Both the position numbers and the translations under genes were made by a program. Shown here piece after piece: positions 13,787 through 23,533 of a stretch of DNA of 43,010 bases (within the stretch, counting starts at the first letter, position 1; the number at the start of each line of letters is the position of its first letter). The notes under the pieces were generated by a model. The model had not been told where the DNA came from. It did not search any database and saw nothing but the letters and a program-made list of their open reading frames with translations. Source of the stretch: Holophagae bacterium (GTDB lineage Bacteria > Acidobacteriota > Holophagae > Acanthopleuribacterales > Acanthopleuribacteraceae); contig JAJCXM010000029.1 of the NCBI GenBank assembly GCA_029263455.1, forward strand, positions 1-43,010, in the 5' to 3' direction.

Positions 13787-16700
13787 TCACGGACATGACA
13801 ACGTGGTTAGGTAAGTCTCCTGCGTGACATCGTTAACCCATTTCATCAAACGGTTGGGCACTACTCTCCATTGCGGCAGTTCACCGTTGAATGACGAAAA
13901 GTTGCCTTGCGGGTTATAGCTGAATACAGCACCGCTCGCATCTGCTCGCTGTTGTAAATCAACGATGTTCGCGCAGTCTCCTGCGTCCAAATTATTGCGA
14001 TCCAAGACCAGCACATGATGGCTGTAATTCAATAAATCGACCAAAGCATTGAGTGAACTGATGTCCAGTAGCCGGTTGTGTTGTAGATGCAGAATTTCCA
14101 AATCCAGGCAAAAGCTTAAGGGTGAAAGATCAGTCAACTTATTATCGTTGGCACTAAAGAACTTCAAACCAGCGGGCAGAAACGGGGGCAATGAGGTCAT
14201 GTGGTTGTGATTTATGGACAATGATTCAAGAACGGGGATTTGGCCTACGGTGAATGGCAGGATTTGCTGGTGCGTGTCGTCCAGGACAAGGGTCCTCAGA
14301 TTTGTCAGATTATCGAAGGCATCCCAAAGTGGAATTAAGCGGTTGCCTGACAAGTCTAGATATTCCAAATTCTGCAACAAGAACAATTCAAAAGGCACAT
14401 CCTGTAGGCGATTATGAGCCAAGCTTAGGAAAAACAGGCCACTAGGAAACACAAATTGGCCTGCATCCTCAAGACTGGCTAACTCACCGTCATCCAAGAA
14501 GAAGGAGTTCAGACTCGCCATGCCCTGCATATTGGGCAGGCCAATAATTGGATTCCCATTTGCCGAGATCCATTGTATTGCAGGGAACATTTCTAGACCT
14601 GAAAGATCGGTTACGCCCAGAAACGAGCAATCAAGGCCCTGAACGAATTGGGCTTCGTAGGGACTGATTTCGTCGTCGTCATAGGTGTCAATGCTCGGAT
14701 CTAATGTAAACACAGCTTTAAGTGCAGTGTCAGGAATGAATAAGTAGGGATCAACAGACCACGTCCAGGAACTGGTGTCATCTTCGTTGGCAGCAGCTCC
14801 GTTGTTGGGGGTGGAATCGGCGTCAGCTTCGCTGCAAGCAACCACTTCAAAATTGAGGGTTTGGGCGACATCCTGAGTTAAATAGCCAGCCAGGTCCAGT
14901 TGAGCGCTAGAAAAAGCGGCAAGACTGGCCAGGCTCCAAATGCCGCTGACAGCGCTGTAGCTTCCTTGTGCGGGTGTGACAGATGAAATATTCAACTCAG
15001 ACGTTGACGTCACTTTTATCTGAATACCGGTCGCGCCCTGAGCACTGGTGTTCTCCACCCATAAACTGATATTGCCCGTTTGTCCGACAGATAAACTGGT
15101 TTGCGACGAAATGGATGTCAATTGCAGATCAACACTGGCGGGAGCTGCGTAGGTCAATACCACATCATCCGTACTCGCGCTGCATGGACTATTGGTGATC
15201 GTCCATCGAAGCGTATAGGTGCCGGAAGCAATAGCGGGCGTAAAGGTTGACGACGGCCAACCTGGACTACCGAATTGGGTAGGGTTAGTACTCGGCCCAG
15301 ACACGATCGACCAAAGACCACTGCCGATCGCCGGGGTGTTAGCTTGGATGTTGGCGACTTGTCCCGCAGCAAGGTTCTGATCGGGCCCAGCGTTTGCATT
15401 CGTTGGCGGCGCTGACACCGAAACGGCAGTTGCGCTGGTCCCTGAACTACCACAACCGTTCATGGCCGTGACACTCACGTTCCCACTTTGCGACGCGAAT
15501 AGGACACTCACCGAAGTGCTACCTTGCCCGGATTGAATGACCGACCCAGCGGGAACCGTCCACAAATACGACGCTGCCCCACTCACCGCATTCACACTAT
15601 AAGTTGCACTCGTATTGGCACACATTTGTGCAGGTCCCGACGGATTCGCGGTTTGGGCTGGCACGCCTGATGCTGGGTTAACAGCAAGGGATTTGACCGC
15701 GGACAAGAAACAAGCATTTTGAGCTTGTACTTGAACGCTACCACTGGAAGCAGCGACCTGCACGACAATGGCGGGCGTACCCTGCCCACTTACGATGGAG
15801 AAACCCAGTGGTACCTGCCAAGTATATGTATCTGCGTTTGCAACCGGCTGAATCGAATAGGTAGCTTGCGTCCCCGAACAGGGTACGCTAGGTCCTGTGA
15901 TATCACCTGGCTGAGGTAGAGCAGGCACGATAGGGATGTCAAAGGTTTTCATCGAGGATTGGCCGTTGCGAGTGACGGTTAATTGAAGTTGAACGTTGCC
16001 TGAAACGCCTGCCGTGAACAGGATGGAAGACGTTCCCTGCCCAGCATTAATGACCGCGTTACTAGCCGTCCACGCATAGGTCGTTCCTGTGGCCCCATCA
16101 ACCGTACAAGCTGTGTAATTACTAGTGCTAGGACAGACATAGTTGGGAGCCCAAATCGCCGCATTTGGACGTAATTCAAGGGCGAATAACTCGTCATTTG
16201 ACCTCACAGTCATGGCACCATAAATCAGTTTCTGATTCAATTGCGCAAAACCCGAATAAAAACCGCTGCCAACGCCAGGATTCAGATCCGCGACACGCAT
16301 CGTGCCGCTAGTCGTGCCGTCGGAAGTCCAGAGTTCCACACCTGTATCATGGCTCCATCCGCCAAAGAAAATACGATCGCCAATTCGTCTAATCCCGGTT
16401 CGCAGGCCACTAACGACGCCAGGATAAGTGTCTTTGACCAGCTGAGTTACGCCGGAATTGACATCTGTTGACCACAGTTCCCGGCCCGCAGCTCCACTTT
16501 GAGCACTATAGAATAGGTGGTCCTTTAGCTTAAGGGCAGTTCCCGCATTGAACGGCAAGTCGGTTAACTTTGTGGTCCCCATTTCGGTGCCATCACTGCG
16601 CCACAACTCATAGTCACCATTAACCTTTTGAACGTGCATGTAGAGGACATTGTCGATCACGTTCAAGAATTGAGGTGTCAGCATCGTCGATCCCTCCCAG

Positions 16701-18673
16701 ATCTCCTTTACCAAGGTCACGTTCACCCCATCAGTCTTGTAGAGCGCATAATCCGAGTTACCCGTAAACGATGTTCCCGAAAAGTAGGCATTGCCATTCA
16801 TGCTGGCAAAACCCTCCCATAAATCGGTTGACCCAATCGTTGAACTGCCAGCGGCTGTTCCGTCTGACGCCCAAATATCGCCGGTCGTTGAGTTATGCAT
16901 CAAAAGCAGATTATTAAATACGCTAATCGAGTCTATGTTGATAGGACCAGCGACCGTGCCCGTGCCAGCGGCCGTGCCATCACTCTTCCAAAGCGCATAA
17001 GATGAGAAAGTGACTTCATCGACGGCAACGTAATAGGCATGGTTATTCATGACTACCAGATTGCTAATCGAAGGACCCAAATTCATAACGTGGGTACGTG
17101 CCAAAGTTGTACCAGCCGCCGTGCCGTTACTGAACCACAGCTCATTGTGTAAGGCTCCGGTCGAATCAGCCACGACAAAAAAATTGTTGCCGGCAGGTGC
17201 CAATGCCGAAGGGTGTTTCAAGGCGGGGACATTTAATATGTTGGTGCCTGCAGAAGTTCCATCGGTCACGGCTAACTGTCTACCGCTCGACAGAAAATCG
17301 ACTAGAAAGAACAAGTTACTGCCGACATTGGCGAAGTAATTCGGGTTAGAACCAAGGGGCACGCTCGAGGTTGGCCCAGCGTAAGTGCCAGCGGCCGTGC
17401 CATCCGTTGACCATAAACTGCGATTATCGTGTTCAGCTGAGAAATACAGTCGATTATTGAGCACGACGCCACCACTTGCCCCATCAAGCACACCAGGATT
17501 TAAGTCGACTACGATTTGTGTGCCGGCCGTTGTGCCATCACTGGTCCAGTATTCCCGGCCTTCGCTACTGGTTACGGCCGAAAAAACTAGCTTGTTACCC
17601 AGTGAGAAAAAGGAGCTTGGGCTGGATCCCATTGCGCCCGGTTCGATGTCGCGTACCAAGCTGGTTCCTGCAGCTGTGCCGTTTGATTTGTATAACTCGA
17701 TGCTGGTGCTTGCGTCGCCGCCCGCAATATAGAGCGTTCCGCTATGTCCATAGGCTCTCGTAAACCCGTGACCCGCTCCGTTATCTATGTCTACTACTAG
17801 AGATGTCCCCGCAATCGTGCCATTGGTTTTCCATAGTTCGTATCCATGGGTTCCGTCATCACAACCGAAGTAGAGTTCATTCTGGAATTCCAAAAAACGA
17901 GCTGGCCCAGAATCTCCACTACCAGGTTTCAAATCCATGAACAACGATGTGGTGGTTAAGTTACTGCGCCACAACTCAATGCCGTTGCTGCCATCATCGG
18001 CCGCAAAATATAAATACCCGTCATACACGATCAAATGGGAAGGGTTTCCGGATGAACTACCGATGCGGATATCTTTCACCATGGTCGTGCCAGCCAAGCT
18101 CCCATCACTGACCCAAAGTTCTTCGCCATGCATGCCATCATCTGCGCGAAACAGCAGCTTGTTTTGATACTGGGCGAAATTCTTGGGACTTGACCAAGCG
18201 AACCCACTATTAATATCCCTGACCAATTGAGTATTGGCGGTTGTACCATCGGTTTTCCACAATTCTTTTCCCACACCATCGTAGTTGGCCGTAAAGAATA
18301 GGGTCGACCCCACCACCAGCATTTCACCGATACTGGTCAATTTGCTATCCGCATAAATCAGACTCGTGCCAGCCGGTGTGCCATCGCTAACCCACAGATT
18401 GTATTCACTATCGAATATCACCAGTTGGTTTCCTAATACACTTAGCTCGGCAACCGAGTCCTCCATGAACAAGTTCAGGCTTGTGCCATTGCTTTTGAAC
18501 AGACCCACTTTCCCAGCATGCAAACCCGTAAAGAACAACGAAGCGTTGAAACTGGTCAGCCGAAATACGTTTTGCGGAGCGGATGGCCCCACGCCGGTGT
18601 TGAGTTCCTTAATCAAGGTCGGGGTTTGGCCCCAAAGATAACTGGCTAAAAATAAAAACGAGATGACGCGCAT
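13787..18673 (-). CDS. giant secreted ELW-DGT repeat protein with Ig-like and leucine-rich domains
   Basis: 1628 residues from the ATG at 18673, chosen for its AAGGAG site and a good signal peptide (MRVISFLFLASYLWGQ). Residues ~20-880 hold about 16-17 units ending in variations of ELWxSDGTxAGT, each with an alternating strand pattern, likely forming propellers. Next come three or four PKD/Ig-like beta-sandwich units (residues ~880-1180, rich in VSGQGTP.. and SVSV strands), a DUF11-like domain (~1185-1290, SLSVGQTGNISLWVENTS) and then a leucine-rich region of about ten units (~1330-1590, LEYLDLSGNRL, LEILHLQHNRL). No membrane anchor or sorting motif is visible at the C-terminus. It is probably cell-surface or released; binding or adhesion is an inference. 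Confidence 0.85.
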   Translation of the reverse strand: MRVISFLFLASYLWGQTPTLIKELNTGVGPSAPQNVFRLTSFNASLFFTGLHAGKVGLFKSNGTSLNLFMEDSVAELSVLGNQLVIFDSEYNLWVSDGTPAGTSLIYADSKLTSIGEMLVVGSTLFFTANYDGVGKELWKTDGTTANTQLVRDINSGFAWSSPKNFAQYQNKLLFRADDGMHGEELWVSDGSLAGTTMVKDIRIGSSSGNPSHLIVYDGYLYFAADDGSNGIELWRSNLTTTSLFMDLKPGSGDSGPARFLEFQNELYFGCDDGTHGYELWKTNGTIAGTSLVVDIDNGAGHGFTRAYGHSGTLYIAGGDASTSIELYKSNGTAAGTSLVRDIEPGAMGSSPSSFFSLGNKLVFSAVTSSEGREYWTSDGTTAGTQIVVDLNPGVLDGASGGVVLNNRLYFSAEHDNRSLWSTDGTAAGTYAGPTSSVPLGSNPNYFANVGSNLFFLVDFLSSGRQLAVTDGTSAGTNILNVPALKHPSALAPAGNNFFVVADSTGALHNELWFSNGTAAGTTLARTHVMNLGPSISNLVVMNNHAYYVAVDEVTFSSYALWKSDGTAAGTGTVAGPINIDSISVFNNLLLMHNSTTGDIWASDGTAAGSSTIGSTDLWEGFASMNGNAYFSGTSFTGNSDYALYKTDGVNVTLVKEIWEGSTMLTPQFLNVIDNVLYMHVQKVNGDYELWRSDGTEMGTTKLTDLPFNAGTALKLKDHLFYSAQSGAAGRELWSTDVNSGVTQLVKDTYPGVVSGLRTGIRRIGDRIFFGGWSHDTGVELWTSDGTTSGTMRVADLNPGVGSGFYSGFAQLNQKLIYGAMTVRSNDELFALELRPNAAIWAPNYVCPSTSNYTACTVDGATGTTYAWTASNAVINAGQGTSSILFTAGVSGNVQLQLTVTRNGQSSMKTFDIPIVPALPQPGDITGPSVPCSGTQATYSIQPVANADTYTWQVPLGFSIVSGQGTPAIVVQVAASSGSVQVQAQNACFLSAVKSLAVNPASGVPAQTANPSGPAQMCANTSATYSVNAVSGAASYLWTVPAGSVIQSGQGSTSVSVLFASQSGNVSVTAMNGCGSSGTSATAVSVSAPPTNANAGPDQNLAAGQVANIQANTPAIGSGLWSIVSGPSTNPTQFGSPGWPSSTFTPAIASGTYTLRWTITNSPCSASTDDVVLTYAAPASVDLQLTSISSQTSLSVGQTGNISLWVENTSAQGATGIQIKVTSTSELNISSVTPAQGSYSAVSGIWSLASLAAFSSAQLDLAGYLTQDVAQTLNFEVVACSEADADSTPNNGAAANEDDTSSWTWSVDPYLFIPDTALKAVFTLDPSIDTYDDDEISPYEAQFVQGLDCSFLGVTDLSGLEMFPAIQWISANGNPIIGLPNMQGMASLNSFFLDDGELASLEDAGQFVFPSGLFFLSLAHNRLQDVPFELFLLQNLEYLDLSGNRLIPLWDAFDNLTNLRTLVLDDTHQQILPFTVGQIPVLESLSINHNHMTSLPPFLPAGLKFFSANDNKLTDLSPLSFCLDLEILHLQHNRLLDISSLNALVDLLNYSHHVLVLDRNNLDAGDCANIVDLQQRADASGAVFSYNPQGNFSSFNGELPQWRVVPNRLMKWVNDVTQETYLTTLSCP

Positions 18674-18868
18674 TTTTTTGACTCCTTCAGTGGCTCCTGA
18701 AGGTAAGGCGTCAAGCACCCTCATTAGGGGACAAACTATTTATGGCGTCAGCTCGGCATAAATTAGCACAATAATCATAACATTAACTGAAACGCTGGCT
18801 TTTGACCAACTCAACCACTAGGATTGTAGGGAGACCTCTCGAAGGTTAAACCACGTTAGGTTGCCGGA

Positions 18869-20869
18869 TTGAATGACAAGAGATTGGCGTATGTCTGCGA
18901 ACGTTCAATCGAGCGCCGACTCCTAAAAGTCGATGGCGAATTCTCTGCCACCCTGCCCAAGGTGCACGAATACTTGGGCGATTGGATTGCCGAACCATAC
19001 AAGTCGCATGCAGCGACGGTTATCAGCCGATCCATCGCACAAGGCATTCCTTATGCCTTGTGTTACGAGAGCCATGAGCGTAAGACTTGGTGGCTGGATC
19101 ATGGATGGCCGCAAGGCGACACCTTTAAGGGTGTTATTCAAGTGGCCGGCGAAAACGCAATCGATGATGAGCGTCTAAATCCTGAAGACATATTTGGTCA
19201 AGGCGTTCTTGACCTTGCCAAAACCAACTGGCTGTCCATGTCGAACCTTGGTGAATGTATTGCCCATATCACCGAGACTGCGGCGCAAATGGTCGCCGTT
19301 GAACGCGCAAGTGTTTGGTTCTACGACGAGACCCGATCCCACATTGAATGCAGCGATCTTTTCTTGGCTTCCCAGTCAATCCACCAGAAACCGGGCATTC
19401 TGAAGGCCAAGGATTTTCCAGAATATTTTGAGGCGATGAGACAAGCACGCATCATCGATGCGGTGGACGCGCACAAGGACGCCAGAACGGCCGAGTTCTC
19501 GGGCAGCTATCTCTTGCAGCACCATATTGGCGCCATGCTTGACGCACCTATCCGCTTTCGAGGCGAAACGTGCGGCGTTATTTGTCTGGAACACGTCGGA
19601 GACACTCGGGACTGGACAAGAAACGAAAAGGCATTCATATCAACCTTAACCGACGTCTTGGCGCTTGCCATGGAACAGTGGCAGCACCAGCATTCGTTGC
19701 AAGAGCACGCGCGTCTTGAACTCAAGATGCTGGAATCACAAAAATTAGAGAGCTTGGGTGTGCTTGCGGGAGGAATTGCTCACGATCTCAATAATATGTT
19801 GACCCCGATTCTTAGTCGCGCTTCATTGGCCGCTTTAAAGTTAGGCTCTAATCACCCTGCCATCGGCGATGTCGTAGCCATTGAGCAGGCCGCCATACGA
19901 GCTGGCGATATCATCAAGCAACTGCTCGCCTATGCGGGGCGCACACCTAATCAAAAGCGACCGGTTAATATTAATCGCGTCGTTCGAGAAATGACCGAGC
20001 TACTCAAACACACGATATCAAGTCACGCCGAAATCAAATACGAATTGAGCCGCCACAAACTTGTCGCGTTGGCCGATCCGGGCCAGATCCAGCAGGTTGT
20101 TTTGAATCTAATCACCAACGCCAGTGACGCCGTGGCCAGCAAAAGGGGCACGATTCTTTTGCGTACCAAATTGATTGATCAAGGTAGAAGCATCTCACTT
20201 GAGGTCATTGATAATGGCTGCGGCATGGACCAAAAAACACAGGCAAGTATTTTTGACCCCTTTTTCACCACCAAAGCAGACGGCCACGGGCTTGGCCTTG
20301 CCGCGGTAATGGGCATTGTTGAAGGCCACGGCGGTAGCTTGCATGTCACGAGCGAACCAAATGTCGGAACCGAGATTAGACTTGTTCTTCCGCTGGTTAC
20401 CGAATCAGAGCAAATTGAGGTGAAGGACAGTCATGGCGTGATTGTGGATTCAGAAAAAGGGACGATTCTTATTATCGACGACGATGCATTAATCCGAGAA
20501 TGTGCCCTTGTGTCTTTGGAATACTTTGGCTATCAAGCGTTGGAAGCCGAAAGCGGTAGTAAGGGCTTGCAATTATTCAATGAACATCTTGACGAAATCT
20601 TATGCGTCATTGTGGATCAGAGTATGCCAGATATGGACGGACCCGATGTCATCAAATCATTGCGACTGATTTCTCCAAATATCCCAATTCTCGGCATTAG
20701 CGGACATGCGCGATTCCCCTTGCCGAAAGAGATTGATTTGACTTATACGCGCTTCCTGCAAAAACCCTTCAAGCCCCAAGAAATCATTGAACGCGTTGAA
20801 ACGCTCGTTGCTCGGGCAAAGGTTGACCAAGCAGGCACAAACCAAAATAAACAGGAGCCGTTAGCCTAA
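18869..20869 (+). CDS. hybrid sensor histidine kinase with GAF and receiver domains
   Basis: 666 residues from a TTG at 18869; upstream in-frame TAG codons bar a longer form. Residues 1-100 look like a PAS fold, 120-265 form a GAF domain, then a coiled linker (EHARLELKMLESQKLESLG) leads into the HisKA box GGIAHDLNNML with the phospho-accepting His305. The ATPase part has the N box NLITNASDAV, DNGCGMD and GLGLAAVMGIV. The C-terminal receiver has the acidic pair IIDDD, phospho-acceptor Asp583 in VDQSMPDMDG and Lys in QKP. With no membrane segment it senses a cytosolic signal. It is transcribed divergently from the giant surface protein gene and may regulate it; no output partner is encoded here. 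Confidence 0.9.
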   Translation: MNDKRLAYVCERSIERRLLKVDGEFSATLPKVHEYLGDWIAEPYKSHAATVISRSIAQGIPYALCYESHERKTWWLDHGWPQGDTFKGVIQVAGENAIDDERLNPEDIFGQGVLDLAKTNWLSMSNLGECIAHITETAAQMVAVERASVWFYDETRSHIECSDLFLASQSIHQKPGILKAKDFPEYFEAMRQARIIDAVDAHKDARTAEFSGSYLLQHHIGAMLDAPIRFRGETCGVICLEHVGDTRDWTRNEKAFISTLTDVLALAMEQWQHQHSLQEHARLELKMLESQKLESLGVLAGGIAHDLNNMLTPILSRASLAALKLGSNHPAIGDVVAIEQAAIRAGDIIKQLLAYAGRTPNQKRPVNINRVVREMTELLKHTISSHAEIKYELSRHKLVALADPGQIQQVVLNLITNASDAVASKRGTILLRTKLIDQGRSISLEVIDNGCGMDQKTQASIFDPFFTTKADGHGLGLAAVMGIVEGHGGSLHVTSEPNVGTEIRLVLPLVTESEQIEVKDSHGVIVDSEKGTILIIDDDALIRECALVSLEYFGYQALEAESGSKGLQLFNEHLDEILCVIVDQSMPDMDGPDVIKSLRLISPNIPILGISGHARFPLPKEIDLTYTRFLQKPFKPQEIIERVETLVARAKVDQAGTNQNKQEPLA

Positions 20870-21040
20870 TCTCACCAAACAATCTGATTTTGGCGTTGCT
20901 TTCAGCTTTACTCGAGGCGGCTCGGCAAGCTTCTATAGGTGTGTTTGTGTGAATAGACGTTATCTCATTATATACACAAAGTCCCAGCACCCTTACACTC
21001 ATTATGATTGTGATGGTCTCTTGGGAAACGGGGGATCGTC

Positions 21041-21535
21041 TTGAAGTTCATATTGCCCTTTGTTCTTTTTGCACTCACTTATGGCCAGAACGATCGAGCC
21101 TACCTACCTCACTACACCTTTGTTGGCGGCCACTGGAAAACCGAGTTCACCATCGCCAACATGAACTCCGTACCTACGTTCCTAACCATCACGGCTTGGT
21201 CTGATCAGGGCACGGCGTTAGGTGAACTGCGATGGGAGCTGGATGGCTTCGAGTCACGAACCCAACTCGTTTCAGAAGCTTTCCCCAACTTACTGGAGCA
21301 GCGCGGTTGGTTACAGCTATCGGGTGACTTGGCCAACGTACGTGGAACGATGACCTTTGAGTTCAGACAAACGGGCGGTGCCACAAGTTTACCTTTAGTT
21401 CTTTCTACCAGCTCCGATCAAGTACTGGTGGGGCTGGACCACCGGCCAGGCCAAAACAGCGGATTCGCCATCGTGAACCCGACCGCTACAGATCTTCAGA
21501 TCGAGATGCAATTAGTGGGAACCGATGGCAGCTAA
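21041..21535 (+). CDS. N-terminal part of a secreted serine hydrolase gene, cut by an in-frame TAA
   Basis: 164 residues from a TTG with GGGGGA at good spacing. A signal peptide (MKFILPFVLFALTYGQ) is followed by an all-beta domain of the type HYTFVGGHWKTEFTIANMNS... that seems to start again at ATDLQIEMQLVGTDGS. The frame then meets a TAA at 21533, but the same frame stays open for another 412 codons, right through the serine hydrolase annotated next. There is no shift of frame and no new ribosome site. I read both as one gene of about 576 codons broken by one nonsense codon, or read through it. The domain itself would be a periplasmic accessory module. Confidence 0.7.
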   Translation: MKFILPFVLFALTYGQNDRAYLPHYTFVGGHWKTEFTIANMNSVPTFLTITAWSDQGTALGELRWELDGFESRTQLVSEAFPNLLEQRGWLQLSGDLANVRGTMTFEFRQTGGATSLPLVLSTSSDQVLVGLDHRPGQNSGFAIVNPTATDLQIEMQLVGTDGS

Positions 21536-21700
21536 ATAGGACGAAGCCTGAGCTTAGCGCCGCGCCAAAAGAGGGTCGGACTTATCGAGGATTTCTTCTC
21601 AACACCGCTTCCTGATTTATCGCGGCTCGAACTGTCTGGATCAGGTGAATTTGTCGCCTTCGGTCTCACCTTCAAGCATGGCAACCAACAAATCATCGCC

Positions 21701-22771
21701 GTGCCAGCCGCACATTTTGCACCTGGCTCAAGACCCTTTTGGCAAAAACAGCTCGACGCCATCACTACCGCTGGTCGAGGCGGCGTAGTGATTGGGTTAC
21801 GCGTGGGCAATGAGAAGTCGTTCGTGTTGGCCTCAGGTATGGCAGATGAAGGGGCAGTACTGCCGATGACGGTCAATCATGCTTCAGAAATTGGCAGTAT
21901 CACTAAGACCTTGGTTGCCTGTCTCACGCTAATGCTTCGTGAAGACGGCCAATTGGATCTTGATGAAAGGCTGCAAAACTGGTTTCCAAACTTGAGGCAT
22001 AGCTCAGAAATCAGCCTCAAGATGCTATTACAACACACCTCTGGTATTCCCGATTACGCCAACGAATCTTACAGTCGCGACATATTCGAACGGGGCAATC
22101 GACATGTCTGGAATCCAGAGGACCTATTAGGATATGCGCTGTCTGAGCCCCATTGGTTTGAACCCGGTTCAAATTCGCGATATTCCAATACCAACTATCT
22201 GCTTTTGGGCATGGTGATTGAGAAGGTGGGCAGTGCCTCACTGGCTAGTCAGATTCGGGCAAGGATTCTCAATCCATTGGGCATGTCGCATACCCACATG
22301 CGTGACGTCGAAAGCCCCAAAGGTCTGGTGGCTCGGGGTTACCTTTGGGACCCTCATCATTTTCTTCTCGATCAAGATTTTAGCGATGTAACTGATTCCG
22401 TGCATGGCTCGGCCCAATTTGGAGACGGTGGATTGGTCTCAAGCGCCAATGACCTGATGATCTTCAGCAATGCTCTGTTTGGGGGAAAGCTACTTTCCGA
22501 TGCATCCTTAATAGAAATGCTTACGCCCAGGGCGGTTGGCAGCCCAGATTATGGCTATGGTGTCGAATTGGGCAGTAAAGAAATCGGACATAGCGGGTCA
22601 TTTATTTGGGGAGGTGCCCTACTCTCCTACTATCCCGAATTCGATACCACGGTTGCAGCCTTAAGGAATGTTTTCGTGCTCGACGACGTCGACCCGACCG
22701 AATCCGAAATCTTAGCTTTGATAGACGACATACTTTCACAAGAGGTCTTCGAAACCGAAAAAGAGCGTTGA
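21701..22771 (+). CDS. serine beta-lactamase-like hydrolase domain (class C/ D-aminopeptidase type), 3' part of the broken gene
   Basis: The coordinates follow the GTG at 21701, but the homologous reading frame is open back to the TAA at 21533, so this start is probably not the natural one. Counting from 21701, the nucleophile motif is S66-I-T-K69 (SEIGSITKT), the second motif is Y161-S-N163 and the third is H297-S-G299 (in place of KTG). This is the catalytic set of penicillin-binding-protein-like serine hydrolases. Substrates range from peptidoglycan stems to esters; without the N-terminal signal it would not be exported. Full catalytic motifs argue that inactivation, if real, is recent. 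Confidence 0.85.
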   Translation: MPAAHFAPGSRPFWQKQLDAITTAGRGGVVIGLRVGNEKSFVLASGMADEGAVLPMTVNHASEIGSITKTLVACLTLMLREDGQLDLDERLQNWFPNLRHSSEISLKMLLQHTSGIPDYANESYSRDIFERGNRHVWNPEDLLGYALSEPHWFEPGSNSRYSNTNYLLLGMVIEKVGSASLASQIRARILNPLGMSHTHMRDVESPKGLVARGYLWDPHHFLLDQDFSDVTDSVHGSAQFGDGGLVSSANDLMIFSNALFGGKLLSDASLIEMLTPRAVGSPDYGYGVELGSKEIGHSGSFIWGGALLSYYPEFDTTVAALRNVFVLDDVDPTESEILALIDDILSQEVFETEKER

Positions 22772-22843
22772 TAACGAATGGGTTTCAGTTTGACGACAGA
22801 CTCATACTTGATATTAACCTTACGAGCTCACCAAGAAAGGTGC

Positions 22844-23533
22844 TTACGTGAGAGCTGGTATCCGTTGGTAGACAATAGCGTTGCCGCTTTTCCCGGTGGG
22901 CACCAATTGCTCCATGCGGCGCAAACAGTAGGCCATTTTTTGGGCTGTGCGTCGCGAGACGCCAAGCGCCTTGGCCAAATGGCCCGTCGTGAATCCATCT
23001 GGCAGATCATTTGGAATTAGGCTGGCCACATCCTCCGGTACCTCAAACAGTGCCTCGCTCACGACCTTCAACAATCTTCGTTCATGGCTGACCCAACCCT
23101 TTCGGCGCCAACTCTTGTTGCCATCGTATCTTCTAACTTCTTCTTCCTCGATCAGCACCACAAGCAACGTGAAATTGGGATGGCAGATCAACTCAGGGAA
23201 ACTCACCCATTCGTCAAATACATGAACCAGCTTGCCTTGTTTGGGCGATTTGCGACGCTGGGGCAGCGAATGACCATCCTTTGGCTCCTTCACAATCCAT
23301 TTCTGTTGTGCGATGGGGTAAATCAGGCGCACGGGATTATCAGCCAATAGGCAGCGTAGTTTTGATTTGATAGCAGAGAAATTACGTGTTTGGACCTCGA
23401 TCAGCTCAGTTCCACGAACCAGATCGATCACGTAGCCCTGCTTAGGCACTTCAGTAAGATCTCCTACCTGCTCGTAGCGTGCTTTCAAGGCCGCGTGCAA
23501 GGGCTTTTCGTTGAGGGTCCCAATGGCATTCAT
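22844..23533 (-). CDS. nuclease-like protein with C-terminal helix-turn-helix
   Basis: 229 residues from the ATG at 23533; a start at 23560 adds nine less typical residues. It begins IGTLNEKPLHAALKARYE and then has VIDLVRGTELIEVQTRNFSAIKSKL, which fits the D-x(n)-E-x-Q/K core of the PD-(D/E)XK nuclease fold. The last 60 residues (FTTGHLAKALGVSRRTAQKMAYCLRRM) form a clear helix-turn-helix. I know this two-part layout from conserved uncharacterised bacterial proteins but no function has been assigned to it in my knowledge. The D, E and Q residues are compatible with metal binding. Alone on its strand, with no methyltransferase or other defence partner nearby. Confidence 0.6.
   Translation of the reverse strand: MNAIGTLNEKPLHAALKARYEQVGDLTEVPKQGYVIDLVRGTELIEVQTRNFSAIKSKLRCLLADNPVRLIYPIAQQKWIVKEPKDGHSLPQRRKSPKQGKLVHVFDEWVSFPELICHPNFTLLVVLIEEEEVRRYDGNKSWRRKGWVSHERRLLKVVSEALFEVPEDVASLIPNDLPDGFTTGHLAKALGVSRRTAQKMAYCLRRMEQLVPTGKSGNAIVYQRIPALT

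Follow-up and report, generated by a model that had tools for sequence, protein, structure and literature searches.

Serine hydrolases of the S12 type carry three motifs in a fixed order, S-x-x-K, Y-x-N, and H-x-G. The solved structures nearest by sequence to the gene described here are D-Ala-D-Ala carboxypeptidase/D-peptidase chains (9s7k, 4y7p, 1sde, and 1cef; phmmer E = 3.2e-35 against 4y7p), and those nearest by fold are the D-amino acid amidase 2drw, the R61 DD-peptidase, and 4y7p. In-frame stop codons in bacterial genes are a described phenomenon; in the passages of Belinky et al. (2021; PMC7918605) drawn on here, many such stops were concluded from dN/dS not to mark pseudogenes, and the same stop was demanded in at least two genomes as a protection against errors. 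The gene presented here, found in a stretch of 43,010 nucleotides from a Holophagae bacterium (hereafter the window), encodes a probably secreted S12-type hydrolase and contains one in-frame TAA. Literature searches returned nothing on this gene in the titles and abstracts of the papers listed, a result that carries no claim of absence from print.

The initial annotation reported an in-frame TAA in this gene, with no shift of frame, and both statements hold. On the forward strand, the frame that begins at TTG 21041 runs for 164 codons and then reaches the TAA, which is also in frame with 411 open codons that extend to a TGA at 22769–22771 (Table 1). Between positions 21536 and 21700, frame 0 contains no stops, whereas the remaining two frames contain three and two, which rules out a frame shift as the cause. 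No sigma-70-like promoters were found in the region from 20700 to 23000, as compared to a mean of 1.9 in shuffled sequences, an uninformative outcome, and no Rfam family matched the window at its gathering score.

Table 1. Features of the interrupted hydrolase gene (positions are those of the window).
Feature	Position	Strand	Basis
First part of the interrupted gene: 164 codons, TTG to TAA	21041..21535	+	ORF reading
Probable signal peptide	21041..21088	+	By eye: basic residue 2, hydrophobic core, then Y-G-Q
First beta-sandwich repeat, residues 17–122	21089..21406	+	Predicted strands; hhalign
Second beta-sandwich repeat, residues 123–228, broken by the TAA	21407..21724	+	Predicted strands; hhalign
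In-frame TAA, codon 165	21533..21535	+	ORF reading, homologue alignment, predicted structure
Open remainder of the gene, 411 codons plus stop	21536..22771	+	ORF reading
First ATG/GTG/TTG after the TAA (GTG), without Shine-Dalgarno match	21701..21703	+	Codon scan
Serine hydrolase domain PF00144 (D-peptidase/DD-peptidase/class C beta-lactamase fold)	21770..22687	+	Pfam, phmmer, Foldseek
S-x-x-K motif (SITK)	21896..21907	+	S286 and K289 invariant in 25 aligned sequences
Y-S-N motif	22181..22189	+	Y381 invariant, N383 nearly invariant in 25 aligned sequences
H-S-G motif	22589..22597	+	H517 and G519 invariant in 25 aligned sequences

A search with the read-through gene (X at the stop) against seven genomes of the bacterial family Acanthopleuribacteraceae (Acidobacteriota), its own genome included, gave 48 matches at E ≤ 1e-10; a stop falls within the match only in that of the window (one TAA), while the 47 others contain none. 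Fifteen of the 48 matches, including the window's, span both parts of the gene, and these 15 were aligned. All 14 other both-part copies are open at the column of the TAA and have their N-terminal region in frame with the rest, with R (six copies), V (two copies), or G, A, T, L, P, or M (one copy each) at this column; as these copies are single frames in every case, the presence of two adjacent separate genes could be ruled out. Identity of the window gene to the 14 homologues is 25–35% in the pre-stop part, 25–44% in the 55 codons that follow the stop, and 21–42% in the hydrolase. Because identity in these 55 codons is similar to that in the segments on either side, they are coding by descent and not by chance, which agrees with their initial description as open and protein-like. 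The alignment supports a single ancestral gene, probably for a secreted serine hydrolase, that was broken by one in-frame TAA. The initial annotation had proposed to check homologues for the N-terminal domain and had named, as evidence against its reading, homologues that start near 21701 with a ribosome site of their own; the domain is present in one open frame in each of the 14, and no homologue of the latter kind is among them. Nothing in the alignment suggests an ancestral start at GTG 21701, since the intact copies have the N-terminal region in frame.

In the genome that contains the window (6.25 Mb in 40 contigs, with the window as the entire contig C29), the post-stop part has 18 matches, its own included; the two best of the others lie in unbroken, full-length frames of 610 and 619 codons. 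The nearest homologue among the sequences searched shows 38% identity over residues 17–549. No close orthologues were found in a first scan of genome contigs, and in a second contig scan (alignment A1, one hydrolase-domain pattern), the best 80 of 583 confirmed matches included a match before residue 211 only in Sulfidibacter corallicola. No synteny was seen when eight pieces of the window (a PKD/LRR protein, a hybrid kinase, both parts of the gene, and four downstream genes) were compared by tblastn with loci L041–L044 (15–19 kb each); besides the gene itself, only weak kinase matches were obtained (22–37% identity). Elsewhere in the window, a 1,645-residue protein encoded at positions 13787–18724 combines PKD-like, DUF11, and leucine-rich repeats and may be a surface protein; an IS66-type transposase at the right edge of the contig (41868–43001) is a likely reason for the assembly break. 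Genome G003 has two longer relatives (L040:1314–3974 and L045:1155–3908; 886 and 917 codons) that are extended at the C-terminus; as judged by eye from the alignment, the extension of one looks like an alpha/beta hydrolase (GHSLGG), while the other seemingly has a second such domain in which S-x-x-K is present, its first domain being without the motif. In genome G006 (contig 27), two adjoining full-length copies are present at L037:1314–5226, with frames of 632 and 650 codons.

The N-terminal part of the gene begins with a probable signal peptide, a region in which the aligned homologues also have hydrophobic stretches. The two beta units that follow are taken as tandem repeats because a profile comparison by hhalign matches the two halves to each other (probability 98.0, E = 1.9e-13). 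An AlphaFold2 model of the read-through protein (mean pLDDT 81.5, with lower values for the N-terminal part) likewise contains two successive beta units; the alignment used for this model had 25 sequences, with both N-terminal repeats covered by the window gene and L091 only. The model places the TAA in a predicted turn between strands 152–160 and 165–172 of the second repeat, and among the homologues the residue at this column is variable and length differences occur beside it. The TAA had initially been placed between a beta domain and the hydrolase, which is inexact, as it lies inside the second of two beta repeats and the PF00144 match begins only at about 21770. A weak match to DUF5719 (PF18986) extends across the stop (residues 123–181; E = 0.0045; 16.6 bits versus a cut-off of 26.2), and this family is listed for six of eight aligned members at E ≤ 0.1 (best E = 1.2e-12). 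A separate model of the N-terminal domain, built from two sequences, reached a mean pLDDT of 72.3; a fold search with it gave four matches at E ≤ 0.001 (factor XIII chains and one beta-galactosidase) with an rmsd near 18 Å, and the sole compact match was TM1070 of Thermotoga (1nc7_A; 111 columns, 2.7 Å, E = 2.9e-3, probability 1.00). This low-confidence model may provide a lead to a TM1070-like domain. The beta-repeat domain (window 21089–21724) also occurs, apart from the three hydrolases, in other frames of the same genome that range from 405 to 1,238 codons (L029 and L032–L036); in some of them the match is weak (E = 4.5e-4 to 6.1e-4).

The post-stop part contains a hydrolase domain (PF00144, E = 7.8e-53), with a score of 180.2 bits versus a Pfam cut-off of 27, and the three motifs that the initial annotation had described as complete are indeed present, in the order S-x-x-K, Y-x-N, and H-x-G, at residues 286, 381, and 517. 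The score against the class C beta-lactamase model falls far below its threshold (NCBIfam NF033085; 52.5 bits versus a curated cut-off of 415). Our best guess is that the product would be an exported hydrolase for D-amino-acid peptides or esters.

The frame is disrupted relative to intact homologues, as expected for a pseudogene; further lesions or relaxed constraint were not seen, as the gene has no second lesion and, of 54 positions at which the nine other clade members are invariant, retains 49 (15 of 16 in the pre-stop part and 34 of 38 in the post-stop part). In a pseudogene, this state would fit a recent loss only. The conservation was observed at the protein level, the nearest homologue (38% identity) being too distant for a dN/dS estimate. 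This count was made in a ten-member clade, with the five more distant rows of the fifteen left out; the same kind of count without the window gave 54/60 for each of its two nearest relatives and 54/60 to 54/54 for the other seven members, so that conservation of the window gene is at the low end of the clade range but within it. In the tree, the end branch of the window gene is 1.2, no longer than those of the intact pair of copies in the same genome (1.47 and 1.31); the two nearest relatives have end branches of 0.62 and 0.84, and an inner branch of 0.35 leads to their pair. The gene is not visibly decaying by these measures, a pattern equally compatible with a recent stop, an erroneous one, and one that is bypassed.

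We consider it probable that a recent nonsense mutation has interrupted one of the three full-length copies that this genome contains. A single gene of the PF00144/S12 type, with a leader, two tandem beta-sandwich repeats, and a D-peptidase-like domain, would recently have gained one nonsense codon; as this codon lies inside the second repeat, translation from 21041 would halt at 21533 and leave a 164-residue fragment that comprises the first repeat in full and the second in half. In this simplest outcome, the truncated fragment would be the product, with hardly any active enzyme formed, or none, a loss that would likely be tolerated because the genome keeps two other full-length copies. The lone lesion speaks against a recent mutation, as the gene may be functional somehow or the base may be wrong. 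An error of one base in sequencing or assembly, which would mean that the gene is intact in the organism, is unlikely, with a minor but appreciable chance of being correct: such an error would produce one lesion of the substitution type and leave the rest of the gene undamaged, as is seen here in a 40-contig draft, but the assembly is without the signs of being error-rich, with no stops in 95 matches to the response-regulator domain (PF00072; matched domains of about 110 residues, not whole genes) and none in 17 other matches to the post-stop part (two of which cover just the tail of the beta domain). A second near-identical copy was also not found in the assembly, where a collapsed copy would not show, and deep short-read sequencing seldom yields substitution errors. 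The same matched stretches contain no TAA used as a sense codon, which bears on the scarcely credible explanation that TAA is decoded as an amino acid in this bacterium, one that has nothing in its favor beyond the single codon 165. The genome encodes a release factor prfA with a score above the cut-off (492.7 versus 423.25 bits), and a second, weaker match in the same search (260.4 bits) is probably prfB; the neighboring kinase gene upstream ends at a TAA (20867–20869); and a UUA anticodon was present in none of the 40 tRNA loci detected with the Rfam tRNA model and read by ARAGORN. These loci come from 150 of 270 first-look candidates that were scored, and the list, which includes none labelled Ile and no tRNA-Ala(UGC), may be incomplete. 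Genetic recoding was rejected as unlikely on the combined evidence of the release factors, the anticodons, and the 95 response-regulator matches.

It is improbable that the gene is now split, with translation restarting at CTG 21548, GTG 21701, or GTG 21788 to yield a leaderless cytosolic hydrolase. A start at GTG 21701 would keep the whole PF00144 match, and the two other candidates are the only ones among the 10 in-frame NTG codons between the TAA and the catalytic serine to have a Shine-Dalgarno match, defined as four bases at a spacing of 4–10 bases (AGGA 6 bases upstream of CTG 21548 and GAGG 7 bases upstream of GTG 21788); however, two matches against about 0.5 expected are too few to count, and GTG 21788 falls inside the PF00144 match. 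CTG starts are rare. Across the window, 304 of 5,978 NTG codons have a Shine-Dalgarno match, and only seven of 22 presumed starts of Pfam-matched frames have one, with TTG 21041 itself among those without, which makes this test weak in either direction. Against a restart also stand the in-frame N-terminal region of the 14 both-part copies and the N-termini inspected in five relatives from the genome that match the hydrolase part only (L004–L008); a hydrophobic leader was recognized by eye in all five, an argument for export of this type of enzyme. The initial proposal of a hydrolase that is produced and then retained in the cytosol is not supported, as it needs initiation after the stop and GTG 21701 is without a Shine-Dalgarno match; its reading of the locus as an interrupted single gene for a probably secreted hydrolase, N-terminal region included, stands. 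TAA is usually the least leaky stop codon, and low-frequency readthrough that gives some full-length secreted enzyme is quite improbable. Such readthrough would agree with the conserved post-stop sequence, with the position of the stop in a predicted turn where homologues have eight different residues, and with the dN/dS result of Belinky et al. (PMC7918605) mentioned above, but a recent loss predicts the same conservation and the stop was found in one genome only. A further, very improbable reading is that the nonsense codon is a fixed and used switch, by which the gene would produce mainly a short exported beta-repeat protein and, through rare readthrough or restart, a small amount of a hydrolase that is either full-length and exported or leaderless and cytosolic.

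With a recent nonsense mutation as the probable explanation, the significance of the locus as it stands is little, as it is one interrupted copy beside two intact ones in the same genome; an ordinary, recent inactivating mutation, or an erroneous base in the sequence, appears to account for it, and no new mechanism is indicated. If the stop were common to independent isolates and the downstream part were translated, readthrough or gene splitting would be indicated, and either of these, if true, could shift an exported enzyme into the cytosol. For annotation, the value lies in treating the two open frames as one gene, with an N-terminal region that is a two-repeat domain also found elsewhere in the genome.

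In comparison with known systems, the window gene resembles the cases of Belinky et al. (PMC7918605), as described in the passages drawn on here, in that an in-frame stop is located in an otherwise conserved frame; it differs from them in that those stops are shared by at least two genomes, whereas this one was found in a single match of the 48 in seven genomes. Its hydrolase fold and motifs are like those of the D-amino acid amidase of Ochrobactrum anthropi (2drw; Foldseek E = 1.5e-28 for 2drw_D), the Streptomyces R61 DD-peptidase (1ikg and 3pte; E = 2.8e-27 for 1ikg), and the alkaline D-peptidase of Bacillus cereus (4y7p; E = 4.7e-27). These chains have about 340–360 residues, with about 350 columns aligned, which fits the hydrolase domain alone; the two N-terminal repeats of the window gene seem to be absent from them. 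The nearest match, with 38% identity over residues 17–549, from Sulfidibacter corallicola M133 (NZ_CP071793.1; L091, the same place as L009/L041), is, unlike the window gene, a 629-codon open frame without a stop, and it has a leader, two beta repeats, and PF00144 in the same order.
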